Assembly (NCBI GenBank): GCA_001600415.1
Contig: BCJX01000003.1
Location: forward strand, 2,418,761 to 2,482,760
Source of the DNA: Pascua guehoae
Lineage: Eukaryota > Basidiomycota > Tremellomycetes > Trichosporonales > Trichosporonaceae
Length of the DNA: 64,000 bases
Direction: 5' to 3'
A model generated the notes under the pieces. That model worked only from the letters and a program-made list of their open reading frames with translations, was not told the origin of the DNA and ran no database searches. Every line of letters starts with the position of its first letter. Within the stretch, counting starts at the first letter, position 1. The translations under genes were made by a program, and so were the position numbers. This document shows, one piece after another, positions 38,913 to 41,068 of the stretch.

Positions 38913-41068
38913 ATGTCCACTCCCGGCCACAACTACCCCGCCATCAAGCTCTTCACTGGTGAGCCTCTTGCGAGTGCGGCCTGGACCATGCCTCTTCCCT
39001 CGTCCGAAGCGGTGCACAACCGACGCAAGCCCAATGGACCTGGGCCTGCTCGGACGACACCGCCCCTCGCTCGACTCGGAAGGCACCACCAACACACCCC
39101 ACCCCAACCCACACCCTCACACCCTCGCCGGCCCGCCCAGTGGCGACATTGTGTGGACACACCTGACACACAGGCACGTCGCACCCCGAACTCGCGCAGC
39201 TCATCGCCAAGCGTCTCGGTATCCCCCTCGCGCGTGCCAATGTCGTCCAGCCCCCCTCGGGCGAGACAAAGGTCACCATTGTCGAGAGCGTGCGCGATTA
39301 CGATGTCTACATTCTCAACACGGTGGGTACTCGTGTCCCGTTGGGTCCATTGGAGGGGAGCCTGCAGGGCTGCGGATGTGTTACGCGCAGAGCAGCCGAC
39401 TCGATTGCGTGCGATTGCGCGGTGGTGTAGCGGGCGCGGGTGTGTGGGTGTGGATGTGGTGTGTGGTGTGTGCTTGTTGGTGCGGTATACCGAGCGTCCT
39501 CCGCTCAGCGCGGCGGTTGCTGTTATCTGTGCCAGCACTTGGCCAACCTTCCTCTCTGAGTTTATCTTTTCAACGCCCATACCGTTTCCTCATCTACGTC
39601 TCCGTGCCCACCGGAGCGACAACCGGCGACAAGCCATGACTTTCTCCCCCTCTCCTGCCCCCAGACATCAAGAGGCCCACACGCCGACGATCCGACTAAC
39701 CTTCCCAGGGTGCGGGCGCCGTCAACACGTCGCTCATGGAGCTGTGCATCATGATCCACGCGTGCAAGATTAGCTCTGCGCGCCGCGTCACTGCCATTAT
39801 CCCGCACTTTTTCTACGCGCGCCAAGACAAGAAGGACAAGTCGCGTGCGCCCATTACGGCCAAGCTCGTCGCCAACATGCTCATCGAGGCCGGGTGCGAC
39901 CACGTTATTGTGAGTGGAGTGTTGGATGTAGAGTTGGAGGGAGAGGTGTGGTAATGTTTGAATCTCCTGCCCAGCGGCTGGTTAGGCCTGGGTCGTGCCA
40001 AGCTAGAGACCCGCTTCTGCTGGCAGATTAGTGACACATCAATGCTTGTCGGCGGTAGTATCCTCCGCCATGACCTCGGCTTGCCTTGTTTGCGTCAGCC
40101 ACAGCCCAACACTGACACACAGACCATGGACCTGCACGCGTCCCAGATCCAGGGCTTCTTTGACGTGCCCGTCGATAAGTGAGCTCAGCCCCAATGTGGC
40201 GGTGAGCCTGTGCTGACCCAACTTTTTACTACCCTGTGCTGCACCCAAACTTGAATTCTCCACTACAGCGTGAGTCGGAGTGAGCAGTCGCTGGCAAAAC
40301 AACTGTCAAGGCCCAGCGACACGCCATGACCTTACGCATCCCCGCTCACACCCCAGCTCTACGCCGAGCCGTCAATGATCCACCACATCCGCAAGCACAT
40401 TGACGTGGACAACTGCGTCATTGTCTCGCCCGATGCCGGCGGTGCCAAGCGCGCGACGTCGATTGCCGACCGCCTCAATGTCGAGTTTGCCCTGTTCCAC
40501 AAGGAGCGCAAACGCGCCAACGAAGTGTCGCGCATGGTCCTCGTCGGCAGCGTCAAGGACAAGGTTGCCGTGCTCGTCGACGACATGGCCGACTCGTGCG
40601 GCACCCTCGGCCTCGCGGCCCGCAACCTCCTCGAGGCCGGCGCCACCAAGGTCTACGCCTTTGCCACACACGGTATCCTCTCGGGCCCCGCGCTCAAGGT
40701 CATTGCCGAGAGCGGCATGGAAAAGCTCGTCATTACAAACACCATTCCCCAGTCGGACAAGGTGGCACAGTGTGACAAGATTGAGGTCGTCGACATTAGC
40801 GCCGTCCTCGCAGAGACTATTCGTCGTAGCCACTTTGGCGAGTCGGTTGTGAGTACCCATTTGGCCGTGGTCATGGATGCTGGCGGCTGGCGGCTGTGGC
40901 CAGTCTGTCGCACAAGGCCGATCCGCCACACACCCAATGCTAGGACGACAGAAGTCTGGCCCACCACTCAGCTGCTAGCGCAGCTGCTGCCCCCCGCCGT
41001 AACCCCAGCTCACACCCCAGTCGTACCTCTTCCACGAGGTGCCCTTTGTCAACGGGATCGCCATGTGA
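38913..41068 (+). CDS. PRS: Ribose-phosphate pyrophosphokinase (PRPP synthetase)
   Basis: Exons are 38913-38958, 39174-39322, 39709-39909, 40123-40178, a single nucleotide at 40269, 40357-40848 and 41021-41068, giving 330 residues. The enzyme makes PRPP from ribose 5-phosphate and ATP for purine, pyrimidine, His and Trp synthesis. Visible motifs are [20 protein letters not shown], the ATP/flexible loop [20 protein letters not shown], the Mg-binding [13 protein letters not shown], and the PRPP-binding loop [16 protein letters not shown]. The end [15 protein letters not shown] is also standard. No PRS1/PRS5-type insertion is present. The conserved peptide VPVDNLYAEPS cannot be read across 40178-40357 with one intron, because the frame is one base short. 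A one-base exon (C at 40269) between CACTACAG and GTGAGTCGG restores Asn-Leu exactly. The other introns are up to 386 nt. Confidence 0.93.
40269..40269 (+). other. Predicted one-nucleotide exon of PRPP synthetase
   Basis: The preceding exon ends GTCGATAA with two bases left over. The next begins CTCTACGCC in frame zero. One base is needed and C gives Asn (AAC), which is conserved. C at 40269 is flanked by a canonical acceptor (CTCCACTACAG) and donor (GTGAGTCGG). The flanking introns would be 90 and 87 nt. I tested the other AG/GT pairs in the interval and none gives a frame-preserving exon with credible sites. Confidence 0.7.

Follow-up and report, generated by a model that had tools for sequence, protein, structure and literature searches.

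A predicted one-nucleotide exon in the PRPP synthetase gene of Pascua guehoae and its probable traces in the proteins of related fungi

The cytosine at position 40269 (C40269) is very probably a genuine exon of one nucleotide in the gene for PRPP synthetase (ribose-phosphate diphosphokinase), probably a constitutive one, with its flanking introns presumably removed successively by intron definition. The gene occupies seven exons at 38913-41068 on the + strand of the window, the 64,000-nucleotide stretch of Pascua guehoae DNA analysed here (C3:2418761-2482760, from a genome of 33.6 Mb in 28 contigs). When spliced with the one-base exon (Table 1), the model has a CDS of 993 nt and a product of 330 aa, without an internal stop and with GT-AG ends on all six introns; the remaining four introns measure 215, 386, 213 and 172 nt.

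Table 1. Parts of the PRPP synthetase gene around the predicted one-base exon, in window coordinates
Feature	Coordinates	Strand	Remarks
Exon 1	38913..38958	+	start codon 38913
Exon 2	39174..39322	+	spliced model
Exon 3	39709..39909	+	spliced model
Exon 4	40123..40178	+	ends GTC GAT AA, with AA opening the Asn codon
Intron A	40179..40268	+	90 nt, GTGAGC...CTACAG
Exon 5	40269..40269	+	single C that completes the Asn codon AAC as its third base
Intron B	40270..40356	+	87 nt, GTGAGT...GCTCACACCCCAG
Exon 6	40357..40848	+	starts CTC TAC GCC GAG CCG (LYAEP)
Exon 7 and stop codon	41021..41068	+	spliced model

Judged by full-length similarity, the predicted product is a PRPP synthetase. The closest proteins among the matches listed are those of Vanrija albida and two Cutaneotrichosporon (90%), which we take to be Trichosporonales; the V. 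albida protein shares 90% identity over 99% with the 330-aa product and aligns with PRPP synthetases of the PDB over almost its full length. A PF13793 match falls on exons 2 and 3, and two PDB chains, ribose-phosphate pyrophosphokinase 1 and 2 (presumably human), read DIPVDNLYAEP at the aligned site. The genome also holds a second PRPP synthetase-like gene (G000:C16:792603-794390; L002 1062-2849), in which an insert in the C-terminal half and a PVDNLFSD stretch without an intron break were seen by eye.

The earlier note had described C40269 as flanked by an acceptor and a donor and as the third base of a conserved Asn codon, and its coordinates (40178, 40269, 40357) proved exact, as did the lengths of 90 and 87 nt that it gave for the adjoining introns when compared with the spliced model. 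C40269 lies between AG and GT in CTACAG-C-GTGAGT (40263-40275), inside the 178 nt that separate the end of exon 4 at 40178 from the start of exon 6 at 40357. The statement that a single intron puts the frame off is borne out as well: when the C is left out and 40178 is joined directly to 40357, the frame is lost and the protein reads VDNSTPSRQ followed by a stop, six residues past VDN. VPVDNLYAEPS requires one further base, C or T, in the Asn codon, and C40269 supplies a C.

Splice routes through this region were enumerated using GT or GC donors at 40130-40419, AG acceptors at 40150-40459, a minimum intron length of 35 nt and a middle exon no longer than about 90 nt, which gave 289 one-intron and 6,738 two-intron routes (7,027 in all). 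The frame remains open in 379 of the 7,027, including 12 with one intron, and a single route of the 7,027, that with the single-base exon, restores VPVDNLYAEPS. Five other routes keep VPVD and LYAEPS with added residues between them, and their GC donors depart widely from the consensus; none of the 289 one-intron routes enumerated keeps both VPVD and LYAEPS. Skipping C40269 leads to an early stop, as does retention of intron A or of intron B. The reading of C40269 as a one-nucleotide exon is hence supported by its being the sole canonical route tried that restores VPVDNLYAEPS, and additionally by the proteins of relatives.

Taken alone, the AG-C-GT motif is moderately surprising. In 5,000 dinucleotide shuffles of the 178-nt stretch, with the site required to fall in the admissible middle, YAG-Y-GTRAGY appeared in 0.48%, the looser YAG-Y-GTRNG in 1.6% and bare AG-Y-GT in 23%. 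The 13-base site CTACAGYGTGAGT is no signal by itself, since it occurs 4 times genome-wide versus 3 times for a reversed control; by eye, two of the three other occurrences (L005 and L006) resemble ordinary exon ends. It is the motif, the frame requirement and the relatives taken jointly that are convincing.

Intron B has a branch-like CTCAC 8 nt from its acceptor. Its last 13 bases, GCTCACACCCCAG, occur 56 times in the genome versus 6 for the reversed control (both strands), and read as a putative branch site plus acceptor signature of this genome. The same 13 bases close both intron B (40344-40356) and the last intron (41008-41020). The sole branch-like site found in intron A is CTGAC, at a distance of 52 nt from its acceptor. 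This counts against the one-base exon, since the other five introns all have a branch-like site 7-9 nt from the acceptor. An origin of introns A and B by duplication of one intron was rejected, as 152 of 300 shuffles reach their alignment score. The 178-nt stretch matches only its own locus in the genome in a search that ignored very common words.

To follow this joint in other species, we combined three protein searches, from each of which the 120 best of about 7,990 scored proteins were listed, into 201 proteins (P0001-P0201), each standing for a 90% cluster. When sorted by source, 111 had ncbi, nr or uniref and were treated as genome-based, and 90 had lgn or jgi alone. Setting aside the intact Culex protein P0044 left 110 fungal genome-based models, three of which (P0009, P0013 and P0053) also have lgn among their sources. 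The longest contigs of the 90 lgn/jgi proteins range from 0.9 to 6.3 kb and their frames are uninterrupted. Because the contigs are short and the frames run open through a gene that has six introns here, these contigs are probably mostly cDNA, that is, derived from RNA. The contig protein P0036, placed near Trichosporonales, shares 92% identity with P0005 from Apiotrichum and has VDNLYAEPS intact; at the ILNT/GAG joint it carries a 45-residue insert beginning VSV that looks like a retained intron, VSV fitting GTNAGY. Among the named proteins in the matches listed (best 120 of about 7,990 per search), none belongs to Ustilaginomycotina or Pucciniomycotina.

Among the matches listed, 16 of the 110 fungal genome-based models have an intact VDNL[YF][AS]EP versus 89 of the 90 lgn/jgi proteins, a contrast that the latter figure overstates because cDNA-like contig frames are selected for openness. 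The lgn/jgi exception, P0062, has S in place of N, and the 94 other genome-based models are altered at the VDN/LYAEP joint. Earlier tallies of the matches listed, with Culex included, ran in the same order (intact in 14/49 versus 70/71, then in 17/101 versus 80/81); Fisher's test on the second gives 3e-33, a value to be read with caution, given the relatedness of the sequences and the favouring of open frames among contig proteins. The intact genome-based models comprise four from Trichosporonales (P0001, P0002, P0003 and P0005), eight from other Tremellomycetes (P0004, P0006, P0008, P0009, P0013, P0028, P0037 and P0038) and, in addition, P0053 (Laccaria), P0140 and P0141 (Taiwanofungus) and P0157 (Somion). 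The annotation of these 16 may include the one-base exon, or their genes may lack the introns; they count against a shared exon. The broken models include Phaffia, presumably of the Tremellomycetes, and Agaricus, Scleroderma, Trametes, Russula, Stereum, Sphaerobolus and Sistotremastrum, which we take to be Agaricomycetes.

The annotation trouble is specific to this joint, as follows from a comparison with four control joints in the same alignment. Indels within 4 residues of the joint were present in 55 of 101 genome-based models and in 1, 3, 0 and 1 of the 101 at the other four joints (Culex included, matches listed), the joints compared being those of the window's gene; some relatives may lack an intron at one or another of them. 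For the 81 lgn/jgi proteins among the matches listed, the indel counts were 0 here and 4, 2, 0 and 1 at the control joints, and a first-stage count of the matches listed gave 24/49 here and 0-3/49 elsewhere. Several broken models can also be paired with an intact protein that agrees with them at every position compared, the masked site and columns with gaps being set aside. For example, P0019 (C. neoformans) matches P0012 (374 contigs), P0026 (C. deneoformans) matches P0013, and both P0024 and P0030 (C. gattii) match P0009, each at 317/317; it should be noted that the intact partners P0009 and P0013 have genome-based sources as well. Likewise, P0112 (Leucocoprinus) matches P0051, and P0155 and P0160 (Postia/Rhodonia placenta) match P0159 (113 contigs), at 309/309.

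The 94 broken models fall into 29 that read VDKLYAEP, 29 with VDK plus one residue, 18 without VDN, 15 with longer inserts and 3 that are shifted or otherwise altered. Each in-frame class is a gene finder's way of gaining one base modulo three. In the models with VDK plus one residue, the donor would have slid by four bases, from GATAA/GTRNGT to GATAAGTRN/GT, so that the inserted residue must be TRN, which is Tyr, Cys or Trp. Where L[YF]AEP follows, the residue is indeed W (14), Y (10) or C (4), that is, W, Y or C in 28 of 28 as compared with a background share of 4.5% for these three residues, although the 28 are not independent events because many come from related species. In the 29th such model, P0160, the C is present and the L is absent. 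Among the 15 longer inserts, 3 start with VDNVS, which by its protein letters would be AAY running on into the GTNAGY donor of a putative intron B, and 9 end in Ser, which fits the final AG of a putative intron A plus a pyrimidine one-base exon; P0088 belongs to both groups. P0040 reads NCTP and P0096 NCMLSRP, letters that point to a plain single-intron join one frame off. P0019 (VDKHCC), P0039, P0160, P0164, P0166 and P0178 fit no simple class.

These remnants bear on the explanation that a base was lost through an assembly or sequencing error at the border of exon 4 or exon 6, leaving the 178 nt as one ordinary intron. Such a length would be in keeping with those of the gene's other introns (215, 386, 213 and 172 nt), and the internal motif could be a matter of chance at the shuffle frequencies of 0.48-1.6%. 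However, it is at this very joint that genome-based models of many other species break down (94 of 110 among the matches listed), and in relatives too the W/Y/C inserts agree with a GTRNGT donor lying immediately behind GATAA. We consider an error of this kind very unlikely.

Slimmer still are the chances of two readings that take a class of broken models at its word. In the first, a single non-canonical intron keeps the G of one or the other border (GATAAG/TG..AG or GT..CA/GCTC) and yields VDKLYAEP, the form present in 29 genome-based models among the matches listed. This needs non-canonical ends, while K is the expected product of an aligner that absorbs the border G, by which the VDKLYAEP models are plausibly explained. 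Moreover, the contig proteins show N in 89 of 90 (S in P0062), and the Postia model P0155, which reads VDKL, is the same at 309/309 positions elsewhere as an lgn protein (113 contigs) with N at this codon. In the second reading, which we regard as no more probable than the first, a weak donor GTCGAT at 40171 is spliced to 40356 and gives an in-frame protein without VDN as the main or a minor form. This splice is one of the open one-intron routes, and VDN is absent in just this way from 18 genome-based models among the matches listed. GTCGAT is nevertheless a poor donor, its use removes three residues from a motif that the PDB chains retain, and the form without VDN occurs in 0 of the 90 contig proteins (89 intact, P0062 with S for N); the 18 models would reflect a gene finder taking the GT of the Val codon as a donor (minus 8). 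A stwintron, a nested arrangement of a kind described in fungi according to passages of PMC5639578, is the least probable of all, since removing all 178 nt (40179-40356) shifts the frame to VDNSTPSRQ and a stop, and the sole borders that add one base (40179 and 40356) give G and hence K, neither leaving GT/AG at the outer ends by our reading.

For the one-nucleotide exon itself, we propose that introns A and B, both short, would each be recognised by intron definition and taken out one after the other. If A were removed first, the product GATAA-C/GTGAGT would carry a ready donor for B; if B were removed first, the product CTACAG/C-CTCTAC would carry an acceptor for A. Either order would leave AAC in the mRNA, so that the site would work like a recursive-splicing ratchet from which a single base stays behind. 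Intron definition with sequential removal is favoured because an exon-spanning complex on one base is hard to imagine, and passages of the APC11 study show that Guo and Liu proposed the same for that gene (PMC4674806).

As a kind, one-base exons are already known, from plant APC11 and VPS55, from Fusarium CYP621A and from a mention in Cryptococcus neoformans. The earlier note had called them rare and cited APC11; that case stands, and the rarity is lessened by the others, which include C. neoformans (passages of PMC3990503). According to passages of PMC4674806, the Arabidopsis APC11 exon, base A333 within a 422-nt stretch, is experimentally proven, and it resembles the PRPP synthetase exon in that one base lies between AG and GT, is essential for the frame and was misannotated, with intron definition and recursive removal proposed; it differs in belonging to a plant gene with experimental proof, whereas the PRPP synthetase exon belongs to a fungal enzyme with short introns and is known from sequence. 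The 1-nt microexons of VPS55 and APC11 are described in passages of PMC8831610 as well conserved in land plants and absent from reference annotations. Their donors are GTRAGT, as in PRPP synthetase, but they were shown by RNA-seq and RT-PCR, and VPS55 also has forms that lack the exon (PMC8831610, in part). The Fusarium CYP621A exon is a G between AG and GT with SRA reads in support, claimed in passages of PMC12940212 as the first fungal case and placed in a gene said to be rarely expressed. Like the PRPP synthetase exon it is fungal, a single base inside a conserved motif and a place where models go wrong; CYP621A is, however, an ascomycete P450 with base G (PMC12940212, in part), and PRPP synthetase a housekeeping gene of a basidiomycete, in which the base is C and the apparent range wider. 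The passages of PMC3990503 mention 1-bp exons in C. neoformans without a named gene or a claim of conservation, and the PRPP synthetase of that species is among the enzymes that would carry the exon on our reading. No one-base exon appears in the passages of PMC8022950 and PMC1184071, the latter giving 6 bp as the shortest exon of Phanerochaete P450 genes.

A one-base exon in PRPP synthetase was not found in the titles and abstract openings of the papers listed from the open literature, searched mostly by exon kind, with subscription papers and preprints outside the scope. The single-base exon of placozoan cox1 is mitochondrial and not spliceosomal, unlike that of PRPP synthetase. The two are alike in consisting of a single base, as reported for placozoan mitochondrial cox1 (PMC5436844).

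Tremellomycetes and Agaricomycetes probably share the one-base exon, because of the contrast between broken and intact proteins, the joint-specific indels, the W/Y/C remnants and the identical pairs. Hence the exon is probably not peculiar to the P. guehoae genome but an old feature of the gene, a claim about age that is based on peptide remnants in the proteins of relatives. What is new here is the suggestion that the same tiny exon is present in the PRPP synthetase of many relatives, with an unusually wide apparent range. PRPP synthetase is an essential enzyme and the entry point of nucleotide synthesis. Because skipping the exon, keeping A and keeping B each give an early stop, one might speculate, though we think it unlikely, that the exon goes back to the ancestor of Agaricomycotina and was retained as a splicing checkpoint that sets the amount of PRPP synthetase through the success of a double splice.

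If the exon is old, a very large group of fungi would be splicing a one-base exon reliably in a gene with a housekeeping role, which exon definition would find hard to account for. Most models of the enzyme (94 of 110 among the matches listed) would then be wrong at one place, and comparing broken models with contig proteins offers a cheap way to detect further tiny exons. The many species concerned, with their short introns and, for some, genetic tools, would provide natural replicates for studying the order of intron removal and the handling of adjacent splice sites.
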